DNA of 17,663 nt from an uncultured Rubritalea sp. (lineage in GTDB: Bacteria > Verrucomicrobiota > Verrucomicrobiia > Verrucomicrobiales > Akkermansiaceae), in contig CALFBV010000160.1 of the NCBI GenBank assembly GCA_937951395.1, forward strand, positions 1 through 17,663, in the 5' to 3' direction. This document shows positions 461 to 9,121 of this stretch, piece by piece. Every line of letters begins with the position of its first letter. The stretch's first letter is position 1. Below the pieces are notes generated by a model that saw only the letters and a program-made list of their open reading frames with translations, was not told the origin of the DNA and did not search any database. The position numbers and the translations under genes were made by a program.

Positions 461-1585
461 TTACCACTTAAGTTTCTTTCTAAGACGGTTTCTTAATACC
501 ATCGAGAGTAGAGCGAAGCCCATGACGAGAATGAGAAAAGCTGCGATGGAGCCATATTGCATCGGTTTCACATACTCGGAGTCGGGGAACTTTGCTAAAG
601 TATAGATGTGAAATGGCAGAGCTTGAACAGACTGAGTAAGGAAGCTCCAAGGACCTTCTACTTGCTCCCAAGGAAGAGTAGATTTCTCAGACATGGTAGC
701 AGTAAGCATGATGGGTGCGGTCTCACCAGCTACACGTGTGATGCCCAGCACAGAGGCTGTGAGAACTCCTGGAATAGCAAAAGGAAGCACAGATTTACGA
801 ATGGTTTGCCATTGTGTAGCACCTAGGGCATAAGATGCCTCGCGGAAGCCTGTTGGTACTGCGCGGAGACTTTCTTCACAGGCTGTAATGATGACTGGGA
901 GTACCATGATGGCGAGCGTGCAGCTACCTGCGAGGAGAGAAGTACCCCAACCTTGAAAGCTAAGATAGCTATCAGTCCAGAACCAACGGCAGACAAAGGC
1001 AGTAGTGTCCTTCGGTGCGTCTGTGATGACAGGTGCTAACCAGCAGAATACACCTAATCCGAAAAGTGCAAATACAATAGATGGGACACCGGCTAAGTTA
1101 AGAATAGATAGCCTAATCGCGGACATGACTCTACCATGACCGCAGTATTCACTAAGGTAGATAGCGGCAGAAACTCCGATGAATAAGGCGATAATCATAC
1201 AAAAGAAAACGAGTAAAAATGTCCCTGAGAGTGGGCCTAATATTCCACCGCCACTTGCAGTTAGATTTTTCAGGCCGATAATTTCTTTTTCAGGATATGC
1301 TACTATCCATTGCTCGTAGTTCTTTTTCGTCATTGCGTAATTTTTCCCATCTTCGTCTTCCCAAACACTAAGAATCTGAGGGCTTTCTGTGAAGAACTCA
1401 GTATTAATGTAGGGAGCTTCATCGCTAAAAAAAGTAGGTAATCCCTTCATGAAAATATTACTAAATATAAAGACCGCTGACACAATGATGATATAGGTGC
1501 AAAGACGTAGACCCCATAAGGAAAAGAATTCTTTTCTCTGATTCCAGCCTTGTTGGCTTTGAAAGGGATTTGATTTATTAGTCAT
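461..1585 (-). CDS. pstA: Phosphate ABC transporter permease PstA
   Basis: Inner-membrane permease subunit of the high-affinity Pst phosphate importer, partner of PstC. The 374-residue product has a cytoplasmic N-terminus, a first membrane helix at about residues 30-50, then a BPD_transp_1-type core starting near 'GGGILGPLSGTFLLV' (about 112). The EAA-type loop that contacts the ATPase is visible as 'EASYALGATQWQTIRKSVLP' (about 249-268). It is longer than the roughly 300 residues usual for PstA, because the first periplasmic loop carries about 40-50 extra residues (about 55-108). It starts 15 bp after the pstC stop and is the last gene of the run. The start has no strong Shine-Dalgarno sequence. 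The ATPase gene pstB does not follow within the 460 bp available. Confidence 0.93.
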   Translation of the reverse strand: MTNKSNPFQSQQGWNQRKEFFSLWGLRLCTYIIIVSAVFIFSNIFMKGLPTFFSDEAPYINTEFFTESPQILSVWEDEDGKNYAMTKKNYEQWIVAYPEKEIIGLKNLTASGGGILGPLSGTFLLVFFCMIIALFIGVSAAIYLSEYCGHGRVMSAIRLSILNLAGVPSIVFALFGLGVFCWLAPVITDAPKDTTAFVCRWFWTDSYLSFQGWGTSLLAGSCTLAIMVLPVIITACEESLRAVPTGFREASYALGATQWQTIRKSVLPFAIPGVLTASVLGITRVAGETAPIMLTATMSEKSTLPWEQVEGPWSFLTQSVQALPFHIYTLAKFPDSEYVKPMQYGSIAAFLILVMGFALLSMVLRNRLRKKLKW

Positions 1586-1600
1586 AATTGTTAGAGAGTC

Positions 1601-3550
1601 TTAATTTTTGTTAGATCGTTTAGCGATGATGCGTTGGCAAACGCTATTGATGCAAAGTGAAATGAGGAAGAGGACCAGTCCGACCATGAAGAGAGCTTTC
1701 CAGTGCAATACCCCTGGCTCTACTTCACCATATTCTTGAGCGATTATTCCTGTCATGGTGTGAACTGACTCACCCATCACACCTAGACCTTTAGATAGGT
1801 CTGGGATTCTTGCTTTATTTCCCGCTACGAGTAGCACAACCATCGTCTCACCGATGACGCGGCCGAAGCCTAGCATCACTGCTGCTACGATTCCTGATAA
1901 TGAGGCTGGGACGACAATCCTAAGGGCTGTTTGTAGTTTATTTGCCCCCATCGCGAGTGAGGCTTCTGTGTATGCTTTTGGAACGTTATTGAGGGCATCT
2001 TCAGCGAGTGTGAAAATGGTTGGGCACGCCATGAATGCGAGTAGTAGGCCAGCAAGTAAGACATTGAGACGGTCTTGGATGGGGAACCCAGGTATCCATG
2101 ACAGCCAGCCTACATTACTTAAGCCCTGGAGAAGCCCTGCTACGACTAATACGCCGAATAAACCTAAAACGACGGAGGGGATAGCTTGAATAAACTCGAT
2201 ACCAGGCTTGAGGAAACCAGCTTCTCTTTTAGTCGCGAACTGGTTGACATAAATGGCCGCACCGATAGCAAGAGGAACAGCAAAGAACATCGCAACGACT
2301 GAGATAAGTAATGACCCAGTGAAGAGCGGAACTAGTCCATAGAGACTCTGTCGATTACTGCCTGTCTTCCAGTCAGCACCAAAGAAAAACGCGGTGATAG
2401 AATCCCAAATAGTAACTGGCTTTTGGTGATTCCATTCTGTAAGCAGTGCTTTTCTGTCTGAGCTGATTTCTTTGAGTTCATCAAAAAGTCTTGAGCTTTC
2501 TTTGATGAGAATTTCAGATTTTTCTGTCTGAATTTCAGCCTTGGCTAGCAAATCCACTCCCGCTTGAAATTCTGAGATCATTTTGTCTGCTGCTTCATCA
2601 TGTTTCTTGATTTCGGCATAGACTAGCTTGATGTTCTCATCAGTATCTACTTCAACTATTTTGGACCGTAATTTATCGATTCTTTCTTGAATTGCAACGG
2701 CTCTTTTAGATTCTGATTCTAGACTTTCCAAGTCTTTACTAAGCACATCAATACTCTCTTGATTTGTTCGGTTATTAAAAATTGTTTGGTAAGTAGTGAG
2801 AGCTTGCTTTTCGATCATTACATATATCTGACGCAATTCATCATCGGACTGTTTAATAGTATCAATAGCTTTAAAAAAACTACCCATCTGCTCATTGATC
2901 ATTGATGGAATGCGATTCACCTCATCAGGAGTTTCATATTCATTAAGCGCATATTGCTCAGCGAAAATAAGAGCTCTCGTATATGAATCTTCAGAAATTT
3001 CTTCTGTTTCAGGCAGCCGAACTTGGATTTCTTCTAAAAGTTTACTTCTTGGTAGTGTGGCGCATACTTTTCTAACAGATTCTTTCAACGTGATGGCAGC
3101 AGATTCTTTCTCAGGCCCTTCATCTAGTTCTGTATATTCATCTACTTCATTTTCTAGCTGATCGTCGATAATGCTTTCTAATTCTTCATAAATAGGAACA
3201 ACTGTTTCTAGAGCTCCGAATCTAGCACGACGTTCATTGATAAATGCCTGATTTACTTTAGTGTAGAGAGCATCATAGCCAGTTAATTGGTAATTGACAT
3301 GATTAGCGGCTTCGACTCCAGAAATGCGTGCTTCCGATAGCTCAGTGCGGTATCCAGGAATGAATCCTATGGCGGACTTAAAAAGGAAAATACAAATGAA
3401 AAAAAGGAAAAGAATTGCTAAATAGGCATTACCCCCGAAAAAGCCCTTCACTGCTCCATCTGCGTTGAGGTTGAGCCCCATGAGCTGGACCCCGCGTTTG
3501 CGTTTGAAGCTAACTCTTTCAGACAAGTTAGGTTGATTTTTTTTTGCCAT
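1601..3550 (-). CDS. pstC: Phosphate ABC transporter permease PstC with a large periplasmic insertion
   Basis: Inner-membrane permease subunit of the Pst phosphate importer. It has 649 residues, against about 320 for E. coli PstC (family knowledge). The basic N-terminus (residues 1-20) should be cytoplasmic, and the first membrane helix is at about 42-64. The permease core begins near 'FFFGADW' (388-394), where the normal protein resumes, and runs through 'YGLVPLFTGSLLISVVA' to the end. The ATPase-contacting EAA loop is 'EASLAMGANKLQTALRIVVP' (530-549). Between helix 1 and the core lie about 315 extra residues (about 65-380). They are rich in Glu, Lys, Leu and Ile in coiled-coil-like patterns, with a very acidic stretch at about 122-150. 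By the positive-inside rule this segment is periplasmic. pstA follows by 15 bp; pstS lies 139 bp upstream across two hairpins and a PHO-box-like site. The start has no evident Shine-Dalgarno. Confidence 0.94.
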   Translation of the reverse strand: MAKKNQPNLSERVSFKRKRGVQLMGLNLNADGAVKGFFGGNAYLAILFLFFICIFLFKSAIGFIPGYRTELSEARISGVEAANHVNYQLTGYDALYTKVNQAFINERRARFGALETVVPIYEELESIIDDQLENEVDEYTELDEGPEKESAAITLKESVRKVCATLPRSKLLEEIQVRLPETEEISEDSYTRALIFAEQYALNEYETPDEVNRIPSMINEQMGSFFKAIDTIKQSDDELRQIYVMIEKQALTTYQTIFNNRTNQESIDVLSKDLESLESESKRAVAIQERIDKLRSKIVEVDTDENIKLVYAEIKKHDEAADKMISEFQAGVDLLAKAEIQTEKSEILIKESSRLFDELKEISSDRKALLTEWNHQKPVTIWDSITAFFFGADWKTGSNRQSLYGLVPLFTGSLLISVVAMFFAVPLAIGAAIYVNQFATKREAGFLKPGIEFIQAIPSVVLGLFGVLVVAGLLQGLSNVGWLSWIPGFPIQDRLNVLLAGLLLAFMACPTIFTLAEDALNNVPKAYTEASLAMGANKLQTALRIVVPASLSGIVAAVMLGFGRVIGETMVVLLVAGNKARIPDLSKGLGVMGESVHTMTGIIAQEYGEVEPGVLHWKALFMVGLVLFLISLCINSVCQRIIAKRSNKN

Positions 3551-3587
3551 TGCGAGTGCTTTTTAATTGAGAGCTGTAAAAGTATAA

Positions 3588-3625
3588 ATCATTATTATGT
3601 GACAAGCTCGTCACATAATAATGAT
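3588..3625. repeat. Perfect 16-bp inverted repeat between pstS and pstC
   Basis: The arm at 3588-3603 (ATCATTATTATGTGAC) is repeated exactly as its reverse complement at 3610-3625, leaving a 6-base loop. In the pst mRNA it would form a long AT-rich hairpin after the terminator-like stem of pstS. In the DNA it contains PHO-box-like site C. Either role, or both, could apply. Confidence 0.8.
3594..3615 (-). promoter_or_regulatory. PHO-box-like site C (pstS-pstC gap)
   Basis: Read on the minus strand this is two abutting 11-mers, TGTGACGAGCT then TGTCACATAAT. The 11-bp period and the TGTCA core match the known architecture of PhoB-binding PHO boxes. It shares the positions .TG.C.A..T.GTCAC with three other sites in this window. 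A -10-like TATACT lies at 3581-3586, 12 bp after the TGTCAC core, so pstC and pstA may have their own phosphate-responsive promoter. The site lies inside a 16-bp perfect inverted repeat. PhoB binding is inferred. Confidence 0.6.
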
Positions 3626-3632
3626 CGGAAGG

Positions 3633-3664
3633 AAAACCACCAAGGCATTGTTGCTTTGGTGGTT
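3633..3664 (-). terminator. Attenuator or partial terminator after pstS
   Basis: Arms at 3635-3646 and 3653-3664 pair over 12 bp with one G-T wobble and a 6-base loop. On the minus strand the stem is followed by a short, interrupted T tract (TTTTCCTTCC). It begins about 25 bp after the pstS stop. Such stems between pstS and the permease genes commonly let the binding protein be made in excess over the membrane parts; here that is an inference. Confidence 0.6.
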
Positions 3665-3689
3665 ATGTGATGAACTACGTTAAATGTAA

Positions 3690-4550
3690 TTACTCTGTTT
3701 CAGCATCTTTTTTGATTGCGGCAGCTGCCACAGGAGTTGGCACAAAACCTATTTTTGCGACGATCTCATTAGCTTCTTCAGATTGAGTCATCCATGTGAG
3801 GAGCTTAGCTACTTCGCCTTCTGGCTCACCTACAGTGTAGTAGTATAGCTTCCGTGCGAGAGGATATTTAGAGATCTTTGAGATCTTTGGTGAGACACCA
3901 TCAACCTTTACTGTCTTATAGTTATCTCCATCAGCGTAAGCTAGGCCTACATAGCCGATGCCATTTTCGTTTTTGGAGACTTCGGTGCAGATTGGCTGAT
4001 TACCTTCTAGCTTTTGGCATTTGTCACCATAGTCCTTCTTAGACATTGCTAGTCCACTGAATGACTTGTATGTGCCAGAAGAAGTATTTCGCGTATAGAC
4101 AGAAATGGAGCCAGCTTTACCACCGACTTCAGACCAATCTGTGATAGATCCAGTAAAGATACCTTCGATCTGAGTTAGGCTCAGTTTTTTAATAGGGTTC
4201 TTCTCATTGACGATTACCGCAATCATATCATAAGCCGCGATGTGCTCCACGAGCTTCTTTCCCTTCGAGGCAAAATTGTCGAGTTCCTTGTCTTTGACCT
4301 TGCGGCTAGACATTCCAATGTTGGCTGTGCCTGCCACCAAGTTAGAAAATGCATGTCCTGACCCCTGAGCAAGGATGTCAATTGTAAGTGATGGATTAGT
4401 TTTAAGATACTCAGCCTTCAGCTGTGGAACGAGTTTCGCGCCGAGTGTGTCTGATCCTTTAATCTCTATTTTCTCAGCGGCTGCTGAACTGATCATTGCC
4501 AGAGAGGAAAAAAGTGAAGTAACAACAGTTTTTAATGTCTTTATTTTCAT
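3690..4550 (-). CDS. pstS: Periplasmic phosphate-binding protein PstS
   Basis: Solute-binding protein that captures phosphate in the periplasm and hands it to PstC/PstA. The 286-residue product has a signal peptide, residues 1-25 (basic start, hydrophobic run, SSAAA before cleavage), followed by a PBP-like fold. Phosphate-contacting loops recognisable from the family are 'GSDT' (32-35), 'GSGHA' (63-67), 'SSR' (81-83) and 'RNTSSGTY' (154-161). Two cysteines (in 'DKCQ' and 'PICTE') could form a disulfide. It lies 73 bp after phoR and is first in the pstS-pstC-pstA order. PHO-box-like site B lies about 82 bp upstream, inside the end of phoR. No Shine-Dalgarno is visible before the ATG. Confidence 0.95.
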   Translation of the reverse strand: MKIKTLKTVVTSLFSSLAMISSAAAEKIEIKGSDTLGAKLVPQLKAEYLKTNPSLTIDILAQGSGHAFSNLVAGTANIGMSSRKVKDKELDNFASKGKKLVEHIAAYDMIAVIVNEKNPIKKLSLTQIEGIFTGSITDWSEVGGKAGSISVYTRNTSSGTYKSFSGLAMSKKDYGDKCQKLEGNQPICTEVSKNENGIGYVGLAYADGDNYKTVKVDGVSPKISKISKYPLARKLYYYTVGEPEGEVAKLLTWMTQSEEANEIVAKIGFVPTPVAAAAIKKDAETE

Positions 4551-4623
4551 TTGAATAATGTGTGGTTAATATTGGTGTATTTTTTTTGAATACATCCACA
4601 TTTTTCACGTAATGAATAAATCA

Positions 4624-5874
4624 TCAATTTAAGGATGGTGACGAGTTTGTCACGTTGATCGTAAAGGTGGTATTAATGCCCGGTTTGGAGGTTGCTGTGA
4701 TGGTTCCTCCGTGGGCTTCGATGGCGTGTTTTACGATACTGAGTCCTAAGCCTGTGCCCTTGACTTCGTTTTGAGAATGGTGCTTCTGGACACGGTAGAA
4801 GCGGTTGAAGATGTAGGGGAGGTGAGCGGAGGGGATGCCTTTTCCGTTGTCACTTACTTCTATGGTGAGTTGACCGTTTAGCTCACGTGCTGAAATGCTG
4901 ATGTGGACGGGGGATTTGGTGTTTTGTTTGAGGGCGTTTTCGATGATGTTGAAGAGTGCTTGCTCCCAGTAAAATGCGTCTCCTGTGAGGTGGATCAGCT
5001 TAGGGTCGAAACCTGTGGTGATGATTGCGTGTTGATTTTGGATGACGGGGGAGAGGCGTTCGATGACGGTGGTGATGGTGTTATTGAGTAGAAATGGCTC
5101 ACTTGCAAGCTGAGCGGATTCTCCAGACTCTAATTTTGAAATAATCAGCATTTCCTCTATTAGGAGGGCTATTCTCTCGCTATGTTTACGCATGGTGGCG
5201 AGTAGCCTGCGTGCGGTGGCTGGGCTGTCTACTACGTCATCATCGATGAGGTTCTCTAGGTATCCGCTGATGATGGCTAGGGGGGTGCGGAGCTCATGGG
5301 AGGCGTTGGCTACGAACTCTCGCTTGATCTGATCTGTGCGGTGCTCGGTAGTGACATTTCTGAGGATGACGCGGTGTAGTGGAGGCTCAGTATTTTCTGT
5401 GATGTCACTGACCGGGAGGGGGGCGTAGTCGATGATCCAGGCGGAGTCTTCCACTGCATTTTTCTGTCCAAAATTAGTTTCTGTTAGAAGAATGTTCTGC
5501 TTCTGGGCTTCGTTATTAAGGATGGCTTCGGCGATGTGTTTACAGATTTCGTCATTGAGGAATGCGGAGGTGATGGACTTTCCTCTGAGTTCTCGTCCTT
5601 CGCAGAGTATTTTAGTTGCTTCATTGGCTACTTGGATGATTCCAGATGCATTAGTGATGATGAGTGCATCATCGAAGGCGTTGAGGACGAGTTTAAGGTC
5701 TCGCCTTTCAGCCTTGGACTTAGAGAGGATTGTTTTGTGTTCTTTTCTATGAGTGGCGTAGGCGGCCTGTGCCTTGTTGTTCTGAGCAGTGAGCATTCTC
5801 CATAGAATGATGCTACAGATGAGTGAGCCAGCTGTGATCATTAGGAGAGTGATGGTGATAGCTTGCGGATTCAT
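4624..5874 (-). CDS. phoR: Phosphate regulon sensor histidine kinase PhoR
   Basis: Membrane-bound sensor kinase that controls PhoB by phosphorylation and dephosphorylation. It has 416 residues. One N-terminal membrane helix (about 6-28) with almost no periplasmic part is typical of PhoR. A basic linker and a PAS-like domain (about 60-150) follow, then the HisKA domain with the H-box 'ANASHELRTPLA' and phospho-acceptor His193. The ATP-binding domain has the N-box 'FNIIENALK' (308-316), 'DNGKG' (342-346) and 'GTGLGLSIVKHA' (373-384). The ATG overlaps the phoB stop (ATGA at 5871-5874), so the two are translationally coupled. The last codons contain PHO-box-like site B, which would serve pstS. 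The gene order phoB-phoR-pstS and the single-helix architecture favour PhoR over other kinases. Confidence 0.93.
   Translation of the reverse strand: MNPQAITITLLMITAGSLICSIILWRMLTAQNNKAQAAYATHRKEHKTILSKSKAERRDLKLVLNAFDDALIITNASGIIQVANEATKILCEGRELRGKSITSAFLNDEICKHIAEAILNNEAQKQNILLTETNFGQKNAVEDSAWIIDYAPLPVSDITENTEPPLHRVILRNVTTEHRTDQIKREFVANASHELRTPLAIISGYLENLIDDDVVDSPATARRLLATMRKHSERIALLIEEMLIISKLESGESAQLASEPFLLNNTITTVIERLSPVIQNQHAIITTGFDPKLIHLTGDAFYWEQALFNIIENALKQNTKSPVHISISARELNGQLTIEVSDNGKGIPSAHLPYIFNRFYRVQKHHSQNEVKGTGLGLSIVKHAIEAHGGTITATSKPGINTTFTINVTNSSPSLN
4633..4654 (-). promoter_or_regulatory. PHO-box-like site B (end of phoR, upstream of pstS)
   Basis: Minus-strand 11-mers CGTGACAAACT then CGTCACCATCC. 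The core is a perfect GTGAC-N6-GTCAC palindrome at 4638-4653. It ends 82 bp before the pstS ATG, within the coding end of phoR. A possible -10 (TTAAAT) lies shortly downstream but is not strong. It shares the window-wide consensus .TG.C.A..T.GTCAC. Confidence 0.55.
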
Positions 5875-6548
5875 TGAGTAGTTATCTGGTATCCTACGCC
5901 GCGCACAGTCTGGATCAGGTCTGAGTGGGGGCCTATTTTCTGTCTCAGACGCTTCATGTGGGTGTCTAGTGTGCGGCTGTTTACTTCGTCATGATAGCCC
6001 CAGACTTCCTTGAGGAGGGTGTATCTATCTTGCGGAGCATTGGCGCGTTCACAGAGGTAGAGTATGAGTTTAAATTCAGTCGCTGTGAGGTCGATGAGTT
6101 TATTGTCAGCGAAAAGTTGCAGAGTGCTTTTGTTAAATCTAAATGGTGTACACTCAAAGAATGATGAAGAGGTAGACTTGGTGTATCGCTTTAGTATGGC
6201 CTTAATGCGCAAGATGAGTTCCTTGGGGCTGAAGGGCTTTGTTAGGTAGTCATCGGCACCTATCTCTAGTCCTGCGATGCGGTCTTCTGTCTGCGCTTTG
6301 GCGGTGAGAATGAGGACGGGGATGTGTCTGGTGCGGTCATCATTCCTGAGTTCCTTGAAGACTGCGAAACCATCTTTCTTAGGAAGCATGAGGTCTAGTA
6401 TGATGAGGTCTGGCGGATCCTGAAACGCGGCGTCCACACCAGATTGACCATCATGTACCATGACTGAGCTATACTGGTGGCGCTCTAGGTTGAAGCTGAT
6501 GAGTTCAGCGATGTCTACTTCGTCTTCGATGATGAGAATAGTCTGCAT
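5871..6548 (-). CDS. phoB: Phosphate regulon response regulator PhoB
   Basis: Transcription activator of the phosphate-starvation regulon. The receiver domain (about 1-120 from the chosen start) has acidic pocket residues E8/D9, phospho-acceptor D52 in 'LIILDLMLP', T82 and K104. The C-terminal OmpR/PhoB winged helix (about 130-225) ends in 'TVRGVGYQI'. I choose the ATG at 6548 (225 residues, close to the 229 of E. coli PhoB) because GGAG lies 5 bases upstream. An in-frame ATG at 6590 would add 14 residues but has no ribosome site, abuts the PHO-box-like site A and precedes the likely -10. The stop overlaps the phoR start by 4 bp. Confidence 0.95.
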   Translation of the reverse strand: MQTILIIEDEVDIAELISFNLERHQYSSVMVHDGQSGVDAAFQDPPDLIILDLMLPKKDGFAVFKELRNDDRTRHIPVLILTAKAQTEDRIAGLEIGADDYLTKPFSPKELILRIKAILKRYTKSTSSSFFECTPFRFNKSTLQLFADNKLIDLTATEFKLILYLCERANAPQDRYTLLKEVWGYHDEVNSRTLDTHMKRLRQKIGPHSDLIQTVRGVGYQITTQ

Positions 6549-6576
6549 GTCTTCTCCATGATGACATTTCTCTGTA

Positions 6577-6612
6577 ATTTTACCTTCCATTTATGGTGAC
6601 AATTTAGCCATA
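6577..6612 (-). promoter_or_regulatory. PHO-box-like site A and phoB promoter
   Basis: Box at 6591-6612; minus-strand 11-mers TATGGCTAAAT then TGTCACCATAA. A -10-like TAAAAT (6577-6582) lies 13 bp after the TGTCAC core, close to the spacing of activator-dependent Pho promoters. Transcription would start near 6570 and give a short leader to the phoB ATG at 6548. The arrangement implies autoregulation of phoBR. The box overlaps the end of the upstream gene's terminator by 2 bp. Confidence 0.6.
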
Positions 6613-6653
6613 AAAAAACGAGACTAGCAAATCAATTGATCCGCTAGTCTCGT
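6611..6653 (-). terminator. Intrinsic terminator of the Na+/Pi cotransporter gene
   Basis: Perfect 11-bp arms ACGAGACTAGC (6618-6628) and GCTAGTCTCGT (6643-6653), with a 14-base loop that itself contains the palindrome ATCAATTGAT. On the minus strand the stem is followed at once by TTTTTTTA (6611-6618). It lies 25 bp after the stop of the 6679-8415 gene and separates it from phoB. Confidence 0.9.
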
Positions 6654-6678
6654 GGTTTAAATGAGATGCTGCTTATTA

Positions 6679-8415
6679 TTAGCTGCGGATCTCCAGGGAA
6701 GTGCGGGCAATGTGTGTGAGCTGATTTGCTATTCCTCTGAGTTCGTTGTTGGTGTTGATGTTAAGCATTTCTACTTTTACATCACCATTAGCCATGCGCT
6801 TCATTGCAGATTTGTTGAAGTCATTTCTGAGTTGGGCAGCTTTGTCATCTAGCTCGCTGACTTTAGCTGGGTCAACTGTTCCTAGAATGTTGTCATCAGT
6901 GAAGTCTAGGTATGACTTAATGTGGGCAACGAAGAGCTTAATGTTTGTAGTGTGTTCTTCACTAAGGACATTACCTTTTCTGTATTTGCGCTCAGCGAGC
7001 TTCACTAGTCTGTAGATGGCGTCAGAGCATTCTTCTAGCTCAGCTGTGATGCGCAGCATGCCAGTTACTTTCTCGGCATTTTGCTCGCTCATCTCATTGG
7101 ATGTGCAGCGGACTAGGTAATTGGTGATATCGTGCATCATTATGTCTGCATCATCTTCCATTTGCTTAAGTTTGTTCACTAAGCTGGACATGTCTTGGTC
7201 TGGGTTATCGAAGACTTTCTCATAGCCTTTGAACATGGATACACAGTGTTTCGAGAAGTTTTTGAGAGCCTTATCAGCTTCTACGATGTTGAGTTCACCG
7301 AGATCAACAAGACTCTGAGAGATGTATTGTATGGATGGAGCGTCTTCTCCTGTTGGTTTGTCTTTGACCCATTTCTGGACAATCTCTGCAATTTTTTTAG
7401 TGAATGGTAGAAGTAGAAGGATGTTTAGTAGGTTAAATGTGGTGTGGAAGATGGCTACAGCGAATGCCACTTTGACTAGTCCAGCTGGGATTCCACCTTC
7501 TGCTTTTTTAGTCTTAATCTCTATCATCCATTCTGGAAAGAGGTGCAGGGAACTCCAGACTAGTGAGGTGAGCGGGATGATGAGCACGATCGCCCAGATA
7601 GTGCCTATGATGTTGAACAGGAAGTGGGCTCGGGCGGCGCGCTTTGCGTTGACGTTCGCTGAGAGTGAGGCTAGCCAAGCTGTGACAGTAGTTCCGATGT
7701 TTTCACCAAGGACGATGGAAGCACAGCTTACAAATACAGTCTGAGGGTCATCGCCTAGCCAGCCGTTCCATGCGCAGGCAACGGTGATGGCCATTGCAGC
7801 AGATGAGGACTGAACTACGAGGGTGAGGATGATACCGGCTAAGAGGAAGAGAATGGTAGAAAAGTATTGAGAATTTTGAATGAGGGCGATCCAGTATTTC
7901 ACTGTCTCGGCAGCGCCACCCGTGATGTCTGAGGCAGTTGGAACTTGATCTTTAAGTAGAGAAAGACCGTAGAATAGAAGGCCAAAACCGATCAATGTTT
8001 CTCCAAACGATCTCCAGCGATTTTTACCTGTGAAGAAAAGTGGGAGACCTACGCCGATCATGGGTAGTGCGATGTGAGCGATTTTAAATTTAGGGATGAA
8101 TGCGATGAGCCATGCGGTAATCGTAGTTCCTAAGTTAGCCCCCATGATGACTCCGATGGATTCTACGAGTGTGAGAAGACCAGCGTTTACAAAACTAACT
8201 ACTAGAACTGTAGAGGCTGAGGATGACTGGACTAGGCAGGTGGTGAAGAAACCGGTAAAAACTGCACTGAAACGGTTTTTTGTCATGGTGGCTAGTGCCT
8301 TCCGCATGCTGTCACCAGCTACTTTCTGGATACCTTCTGACATGACTTTCATTCCGTAAAGGAATACTCCGAGTGCACCTAAGATGCCTAATGTTTTAAC
8401 GATTGTGTCCCACAT
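6679..8415 (-). CDS. Na+/phosphate cotransporter (NptA/YjbB type) with PhoU-like tail
   Basis: Sodium-dependent phosphate transporter of the Na/Pi cotransporter II family, in the inner membrane. The 578-residue protein has two inverted repeats of the transport unit, each with the hallmark QSSSA (63-67 and 202-206) and a following Gly-rich turn, 'GANLGTT' (92-98) and 'GENIGTT' (237-243). Membrane helices fill residues 1 to about 370. Residues from about 385 to 578 are soluble and helical like PhoU, a common fusion in bacterial members; whether it senses phosphate state is not known from sequence. The direction of transport cannot be read off, since members of this family have been linked to uptake or export. 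It has its own PHO-box-like site and terminator, so it forms a single-gene unit. No Shine-Dalgarno is visible (A-rich leader). Confidence 0.92.
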   Translation of the reverse strand: MWDTIVKTLGILGALGVFLYGMKVMSEGIQKVAGDSMRKALATMTKNRFSAVFTGFFTTCLVQSSSASTVLVVSFVNAGLLTLVESIGVIMGANLGTTITAWLIAFIPKFKIAHIALPMIGVGLPLFFTGKNRWRSFGETLIGFGLLFYGLSLLKDQVPTASDITGGAAETVKYWIALIQNSQYFSTILFLLAGIILTLVVQSSSAAMAITVACAWNGWLGDDPQTVFVSCASIVLGENIGTTVTAWLASLSANVNAKRAARAHFLFNIIGTIWAIVLIIPLTSLVWSSLHLFPEWMIEIKTKKAEGGIPAGLVKVAFAVAIFHTTFNLLNILLLLPFTKKIAEIVQKWVKDKPTGEDAPSIQYISQSLVDLGELNIVEADKALKNFSKHCVSMFKGYEKVFDNPDQDMSSLVNKLKQMEDDADIMMHDITNYLVRCTSNEMSEQNAEKVTGMLRITAELEECSDAIYRLVKLAERKYRKGNVLSEEHTTNIKLFVAHIKSYLDFTDDNILGTVDPAKVSELDDKAAQLRNDFNKSAMKRMANGDVKVEMLNINTNNELRGIANQLTHIARTSLEIRS

Positions 8416-8495
8416 ATTTTTTTTGGTTTGTGTTTAATAATTGTGATGGGAGATTGGTGTTTCGGAGGGGGTGAAGTCAAGTCAGATCAACTTAT

Positions 8496-8517
8496 TATTT
8501 GTGACAATATTGACACA
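8496..8517 (-). promoter_or_regulatory. PHO-box-like site D (upstream of the Na+/Pi cotransporter)
   Basis: Minus-strand 11-mers TGTGTCAATAT then TGTCACAAATA, the most regular tandem repeat of the four sites and also a near-palindrome (8501-8516, one mismatched pair). It ends 80 bp before the cotransporter ATG, in the 193-bp gap behind the HTH gene. I see no strong -10 at the expected distance, only AT-rich sequence. It suggests PhoB control of the cotransporter. Confidence 0.55.
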
Positions 8518-8608
8518 TTGTCGTCATCGTTATTGTTAATAACTCTACCATTCTATACTGTAGCAAGTCCAGCGGTCTATTCCTGCTAGTTCTACGAAAA
8601 CATGAGCT

Positions 8609-9121
8609 TTAGTATAATGTCTTGCGCACTGTTGTTACTACTTCCTTAGTTTTCTCAGGGTCTTCAGCTTCCATGAGTTCGAAGTCACCTTCTTCACAGC
8701 AACGGACGAATCCTTCTCCGTAGCCTTTCAGCTTATCCCAGAGGTGTCTGATGTCTTCTGCTTCATCATTGGTGATGGAGTTATCCTGAGCGGCGACTGA
8801 GATACGCATGAGGAGTGATGAGAACTGGGCAATGATTTCATTCGTAGCAGGGAGAACCTGGAAGCCCTCTTGACAATAGCTGACTGGATTTCTGACGAAG
8901 TAGCCATCACTATGCTCACAGATATATTCAAGGATGCGCGGGTCACCTGTTAGCTTGTAAAGTTCTACCACGCGGTCTAGCGGATTTCTACTGCCTGAAC
9001 CTGTATCTGACTGCTCTTGCGCCCATTTATAGACGAGGGAGAGTGAGACGCCTAGCTTTGTTGCCACCTCTTTTGGTGATGATTTATCAAACGCATCTTT
9101 TAACACTTCATGGGATTTCAT
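8609..9121 (-). CDS. Small HTH DNA-binding protein, resembling phage CII-like (CP76) regulators
   Basis: 170-residue soluble protein. The N-terminus carries a helix-turn-helix, about residues 14-36, 'SPKEVATKLGVSLSLVYKWA', with a typical Gly turn. A central segment, 'YKLTGDPRILEYICEHSDGYFV' (split over about 56-77), resembles the stretch after the HTH in the phage regulatory CII/CP76 family as I remember it. The C-terminal half is helical and acidic (about 90-160). No phage genes surround it, so it looks like a domesticated chromosomal regulator. Targets are unknown. It lies directly before the phosphate genes on the same strand, but site D and a 193-bp gap separate them. The ATG at 9121 has no clear Shine-Dalgarno. 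The family assignment is moderate; the HTH is clearer. Confidence 0.75.
   Translation of the reverse strand: MKSHEVLKDAFDKSSPKEVATKLGVSLSLVYKWAQEQSDTGSGSRNPLDRVVELYKLTGDPRILEYICEHSDGYFVRNPVSYCQEGFQVLPATNEIIAQFSSLLMRISVAAQDNSITNDEAEDIRHLWDKLKGYGEGFVRCCEEGDFELMEAEDPEKTKEVVTTVRKTLY

Follow-up and report, generated by a model that had tools for sequence, protein, structure and literature searches.

A phosphate locus of an uncultured Rubritalea with predicted PhoB operators of dyad form

At low phosphate PhoR phosphorylates the response regulator PhoB, as is established for the family, and most regulators of the OmpR/PhoB family bind direct repeats. According to the part consulted of a 2016 structure paper, all known DNA sites of OmpR/PhoB-family regulators are direct repeats (PMC4832192), and in the excerpt consulted of another study an inverted site, tried for one family member, gave little or no shift (PMC6222199). 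HP1043 of Helicobacter is described, again in an excerpt, as among the few members of the family that act on inverted repeats (PMC3960148). In the open-licence literature searched, to the extent that its text was covered, no description of a Pho box in Verrucomicrobia or of an inverted PhoB site was found. Here we analysed a stretch of 17,663 nucleotides (hereafter the window) from an uncultured Rubritalea, a genus of Verrucomicrobiales, Verrucomicrobiia. The window is the entire contig (C160) of a 1.52-Mb assembly that is 58% complete, and its minus strand carries phoB, phoR, pstS, pstC, pstA and a gene for a sodium/phosphate (Na/Pi) cotransporter. Four sites upstream of phoB, pstS, pstC and the Na/Pi gene are probably PhoB operators, equivalent to the Pho box, which in this order would take the form of a dyad with the far protomer turned round. 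The sites, their conservation, the dyad symmetry, the direct repeats of the sister orders and the order-specific changes in the recognition helix were all computed directly.

Four sites in the window and their chance expectation

An earlier note on this DNA, made from the sequence alone, had pointed to four 22-mers resembling Pho boxes, 42, 82, 43 and 80 bp from the starts of phoB, pstS, pstC and the Na/Pi gene, respectively; their positions, halves, common letters and distances were all found to be correct. The sites are better described as an 18-bp dyad, TGTGAC-N6-GTCACA, from which they depart at 0 (pstC), 1 (Na/Pi), 2 (pstS) and 3 (phoB) of 12 positions. All four predicted operators were read on the minus strand. 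The one upstream of pstC (3598..3615, TGTGACGAGCTTGTCACA) forms the centre of a near-perfect 38-bp palindrome at 3588-3625, which was also flagged as a terminator-like hairpin. Those upstream of the Na/Pi cotransporter gene and of phoB are located at 8500..8517 (TGTGTCAATATTGTCACA) and 6595..6612 (TATGGCTAAATTGTCACC), the latter being the weakest of the four. The operator predicted for pstS (4637..4654, CGTGACAAACTCGTCACC) does not lie in an intergenic gap but within the 3' end of phoR, whose final codons it overlaps; the phoR tail and the operator thus share DNA (4624-4654) and constrain each other. An AT-rich hexamer resembling a -10 element was present 11-12 bases past the phoB site in the window and in two relatives (L023, L026), as in E. 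coli promoters of the same class, and the pstS promoters of the order have a conserved TTG 9 bases past the site, possibly a -35 element.

A scan of the window for the dyad with three mismatches returned 10 places where 7.2 were expected from shuffles; there being no excess, the loose pattern is not significant, and a matrix derived from 99 sites in relatives, with the window excluded, was used instead. By this matrix the four sites scored 24.0, 23.5, 22.0 and 14.7 bits and were the top four places of the 17.7-kb window (the next place scored 10.7), while in Markov sequence a score of 14.7 bits or more arose about twice in 1 Mb, a rate of 2e-6 per position that corresponds to about 0.07 places expected in the window. 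The phoB site was non-significant on its own in the shuffle test (p 0.15), and support for it comes from relatives. In the genome to which the window belongs, three places matched with at most one mismatch, two of them in the window, as against none for a control pattern. With at most two mismatches there were 39 places and 28 for the control, so that matches at this level are mostly background; 16 of the 39 (15 loci) were inspected, of which 11 fell within reading frames (including the pstS site) and 5 outside. Across 58 genomes the 1-mismatch pattern occurred 375 times, compared with 206 for the control.

Conservation upstream of orthologous phosphate genes

Stretches upstream of orthologues of phoB, pstS and the Na/Pi gene were collected from the 58 genomes (30 loci per search) and subjected to an unsupervised expectation-maximization (EM) motif search of width 24, excluding the window, with 60 starts for the real sets and 12 for shuffled ones. 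Loci repeated between searches were removed from the phoB set, three of 20 order stretches were left out for pstS where the gene was not relocated, and distant paralogues or fragments were removed from the Na/Pi loci (7 of 30 before the counts given below, 8 before EM). Each promoter set yielded a single motif, a form of TGTGAC-RAAATY-GTCACA, from 29 (phoB), 29 (pstS) and 21 (Na/Pi) loci, with log-likelihoods of 257, 278 and 184, respectively, compared with 66-80 in five shuffles per set. This motif and its column frequencies bear out the 11-bp period and the GTCA core, the two Pho-box features on which the earlier note had relied.

Promoters were then counted in a larger collection by a neutral criterion, GTnAC-N6-GTnAC with at least 7 of the 8 fixed letters, in which the two central bases of the halves play no part. 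Throughout, 'order' denotes the same-order kinship group and 'sister orders' the kinship groups of other orders in the same class. In the order, a site was found in 50 of 64 phoB promoters (3.7 expected), 44 of 51 pstS promoters (4.4 expected) and 19 of 23 Na/Pi promoters (1.8 expected), and conservation upstream of orthologous genes, the earlier note's own test, was thereby confirmed. Each of these sets includes the window's own promoter, that of phoB failing the criterion, and the counts were not thinned for near relatives, nine near-identical phoB promoters of genus g3 being among the 64. The weaker signal at pstC (12 of 30 order promoters, the window's own among the 30, 3.0 expected) reflects the frequent position of this gene behind pstS. 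In the sister orders sites were present in 32 of 66 phoB promoters (2.6 expected) and 21 of 44 pstS promoters (4.1 expected). In 23 of 42 loci of the order the phoB site ended 44-49 bp upstream of the gene, and in 15 of the 29 sister-order loci that have a site this distance was 46-50 bp; given the similar distance and the same neighbouring gene, the order and its sisters most simply share the same regulator.

Symmetry of the sites and the PhoB protein

The phoB site of the sister orders is a direct 11-bp repeat, for example TGTCACTAAATTGTCACT or TGTAAC-N5-TGTAAC-N5-TGTCGC, with up to four units and, in the consensus, a third unit CGTCGC 11 bp further on. GTGAC predominates as the first unit in the order. 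For n1 and n2, the central bases of the two halves, counts were thinned by merging contexts at least 80% alike. G was found at n1 in 33 of 51 phoB, 34 of 49 pstS, 18 of 22 Na/Pi and 7 of 12 pstC sites of the order, and in 4 of 35 phoB and 3 of 25 pstS sites of the sister orders (Fisher p 7e-7 for phoB and 4e-6 for pstS, related sites being counted as independent). The base directly after half 1 was a purine in 85 of 101 sites of the order, as against 19 of 49 in the sister orders (p 4e-8). The half-site YGTCAC is thus read as the unit GTGACR in half 1 of the order sites.

Symmetry was tested on columns unused in site selection, which were compared as mirrors and as shifts. The summed column divergence was 0.23 (mirror) and 1.16 (shift) in the order, and 1.05 and 0.39, respectively, in the sister orders; the bootstrap interval for the difference between the two was 0.68 to 1.20 in the order and -1.13 to -0.26 in the sister orders, zero lying outside both. 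Site by site, the mirror won 57 times and the direct repeat 12 times in the order, with 32 ties, as compared with 5, 26 and 18 in the sister orders. Direct repeats pooled from both reading orientations could imitate mirror symmetry on average; such a mixture was excluded, since the central pair G,C was found in 66 of 122 order sites (phoB, pstS and Na/Pi) and C,C and G,G in 8 and 2. The order sites are accordingly for the most part not direct repeats as in E. coli and the sister orders, and their mirror symmetry agrees with the impression in the earlier note that the first half resembles an inverted copy. When the same procedure was applied to phoA, phoB and pstS of E. coli K-12, direct boxes were recovered with 1-2 mismatches to the E. 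coli consensus and 3 to the dyad, and the dyad matrix gave these boxes 7.5 to 10.1 bits.

In a tree of 71 PhoB sequences the order and the sister orders were split by one branch (99 by the Shimodaira-Hasegawa-like approximate likelihood-ratio test). When 64 order and 66 sister PhoBs were compared over 225 columns, the columns that best separated the groups, with a nearly complete difference, were 190 (D to H/Q/N/L), 194 (V to L) and 199 (R to K), all in or just before the recognition helix. The next most different columns were scattered (64, 143, 13, 187 and others); differences were also seen where the DNA-binding domain begins (136-145) and in the receiver (86-92), and we take both to be interface regions. 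E. coli PhoB has V and R at 194 and 199, and this sharing of the sister state suggests that the state of the order is probably derived. The recognition helix was mapped by eye onto PhoP of M. tuberculosis, whose DNA contacts were taken from the portion consulted of the structure paper (PMC4832192). The base-contact places correspond to PhoB 192, 193, 195, 196, 197 and 200, occupied by R, T, D, T, H and R in 126 of 130 rows, and a protomer with these residues kept should still read GTCAC, which in half 1 of the order sites stands on the lower strand.

The strongest alternative is that PhoB has retained head-to-tail binding in the order, and that the first subsite simply favours G in its third position and a purine directly after the subsite, the look of a dyad arising because GTnAC is self-palindromic. 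The 11-bp spacing is typical of direct repeats, E. coli units are also degenerate, the sister orders accept C, A or T at n1, and the base-contact residues of PhoB are unchanged. This explanation is possible and was considered the less probable, because at n1 and at the base following half 1, two unselected columns, the change is in each case to the mirror of half 2, and the centre columns pair as mirrors; moreover, 27 of 30 order sites in which n1 is not G retain the purine, giving them the appearance of decayed dyads rather than of direct repeats.

Several observations weigh against the dyad operators proposed here. The self-palindromy of GTnAC leaves inversion visible in the central base and flanks only, direct sites do occur in the order (TGTCACAAATTCGTCACC, L049), and variation is more frequent at A4 of half 1 (15 of 101) than at T13, its mirror place in half 2 (7 of 101), which exceeds the expectation for a mirrored half and favours head-to-tail binding. 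No site was found in 34 of 66 sister-order phoB promoters, in 19 of 20 phoB promoters from other classes (one with a site, 0.9 expected), at four phoB loci of genus g3 (L183, L184, L185, L196), or within 350 bp of phoB in the nearest relative, G003 (L022). The 1-mismatch pattern was found 223 times in the family compared with 85 for the control, yet 152 times compared with 121 in the remaining order, and 12 of the 58 genomes hold fewer sites than control matches. On the protein side, PhoB and PhoR of the window both score under the equivalog cut-offs of NCBIfam; the state n1 = G requires 10 changes on the PhoB tree, having been gained and lost within the order; the contrast between the order and its sisters is one tree split, so that the link between helix and operator is drawn from a single event; and two clades would in any case be expected to show fixed differences.

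It is very doubtful that the sites are bound not by PhoB but by a different dimeric regulator, such as one of the CRP/FNR type. TGTGA...TCACA does resemble CRP half-sites, and dyads are the rule for such proteins, but the CRP consensus is TGTGA-N6-TCACA whereas the spacer in the four sites is 8, and the sites stand on phosphate genes and phoB, near the place of the direct-repeat box of the sister orders; a CRP-type site was ruled out by this spacing and context. A role of the palindromes as terminator or attenuator hairpins in RNA, as the terminator-like 38-bp palindrome around the pstC site might suggest, is highly improbable and was rejected, since the long arms of this palindrome are missing in the two nearest pstC relatives inspected (L052, L053), in which the 18-bp core is kept, and the remaining three window sites are imperfect palindromes.

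For the dyad operators, we infer that PhoB binds the sites, activates by binding and has its far protomer reversed. When phosphate is short, expression of phoBR, pstSCA and the Na/Pi transporter would be turned on through these operators. The operator of the order would mostly be a dyad in which YGTCAC faces its mirror GTGACR, the half-sites being 11 bp apart, with the promoter-near half in the usual orientation and the promoter-far half flipped. Two PhoB protomers would then most likely sit symmetrically, wings outward, rather than head to tail, and the dyad-bound PhoB could recruit RNA polymerase via the promoter-near half. With less assurance, we lean towards a transition at the base of the order, in which PhoB may have passed from head-to-tail to symmetric binding. 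The far half-site would then have flipped regulon-wide and the third unit disappeared, with accompanying changes in the recognition helix and in parts of the domain interfaces. If true, a canonical response regulator would here have switched its dimer geometry in a way that can be traced.

Gene context, candidate regulon members and known systems

The phoB-like response regulator (5871..6548, minus strand) starts with MQTILIIEDE, an alternative longer frame beginning at 6590, and best matches TIGR02154 PhoB (223 bits, under the equivalog cut-off of 296.2); phoR and pst genes adjoin it. For the phoR-like sensor kinase (4624..5874, minus) the PnpS and PhoR families scored best, each under its cut-off. 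The phosphate-binding protein gene pstS (3690..4550, minus) and the permease genes pstC (1601..3550, minus) and pstA (461..1585, minus) were above the cut-offs of TIGR02136, TIGR02138 and TIGR00974, respectively. PstC, the relatives of which at 81% and 73% identity are from uncultured Rubritalea contigs, has a long additional N-terminal part: the family model covers only residues 384-645 of 649 aa, and frames of similar length occur in relatives. Past pstA, positions 1-460 are AT-rich and do not contain the expected pstB before the contig end; in a Rubritalea contig, L020, pstA is followed by pstB and phoU. The Na/Pi cotransporter II-related protein (6679..8415, minus) was above cut-off for TIGR00704 and NF037997, with a weak match to TIGR00153 in its tail, under cut-off. 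Immediately upstream of the phoB operator, and 3' of the Na/Pi gene, lies a terminator-like hairpin with a T-run (6618..6653, minus), and adjoining the Na/Pi operator is a small protein (8609-9121) that weakly matches a phage regulator of the YmfL type, at 29 bits against a cut-off of 90.

Genes beyond those of the window probably also belong to the regulon, judging from relatives in which sites stand before a HAD hydrolase, a transporter of the PHO4 type and lamin-tail/CotH proteins. In G029, a relative with a 6.4-Mb single contig, 11 places matched with at most one mismatch (control, 2): three upstream of pstS, one upstream of a HAD hydrolase, one upstream of a DUF7452 protein, three at proteins of the lamin-tail/CotH or phosphatase-N-domain kind and three inside unassigned frames. 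The two places in G106 (genus g3) were before phoB and 58 bp before a PHO4-type phosphate transporter. At L306, L308, L309 and L319, sites with at most one mismatch were seen at or near the starts of proteins with lamin-tail domains, some of which also carry a CotH kinase domain or the N domain of purple acid phosphatases, and these proteins are candidate members of the Pho regulon. In L020 a site was found on each predicted unit (phoBR, Na/Pi, a second phoBR, pstS and pstCAB-phoU), although this contig shares sites with a genome used for the matrix and is not an independent test. Its two phoBR copies, each with an operator, flank the Na/Pi gene (2994-8894), which looks like a duplication. In the window's genome, TGTCACAAATTTGACACA was seen at the start of an over-long glyceraldehyde-3-phosphate dehydrogenase frame (L009:1501-1518). 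The result supplies a usable matrix for Pho regulons of the order.

Compared with the Pho box of E. coli PhoB (CTGTCAT-N4-CTGTCAT), the order sites share the GTCA core, the two subsites, the 11-bp period, the location at phoB and pstS and the adjacent phoBR; the E. coli box is direct in the K-12 promoters inspected (phoA, phoB and pstS), whereas the promoter-far half of the order is inverted. The sites of the order thus appear to work like a Pho box, yet not in its classical direct-repeat form. The phoB boxes of the sister orders stand at a similar distance from phoB, with the same GTnAC units and the same 11-bp step, and differ in being direct, in often having a third unit and in having mostly C or A in unit 1 where the order has G. 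In Streptomyces, the AfsQ1 and GlnR sites, GTnAC-N6-GTnAC, have a half-site skeleton and spacing equal to those of the order; they belong to different regulators and are regarded as direct repeats. HP1043, which shares the inverted repeats, is an atypical OmpR/PhoB-family regulator and not a PhoB, and for HP1043 we know of no half-site flip traced within a lineage. Set against the direct repeats bound by most of the family, the inverted operator of the order suggests a different seating of PhoB on DNA, and a PhoB lineage with inverted operators beside direct-repeat sisters would make the coupling of receiver dimer to DNA directly testable.

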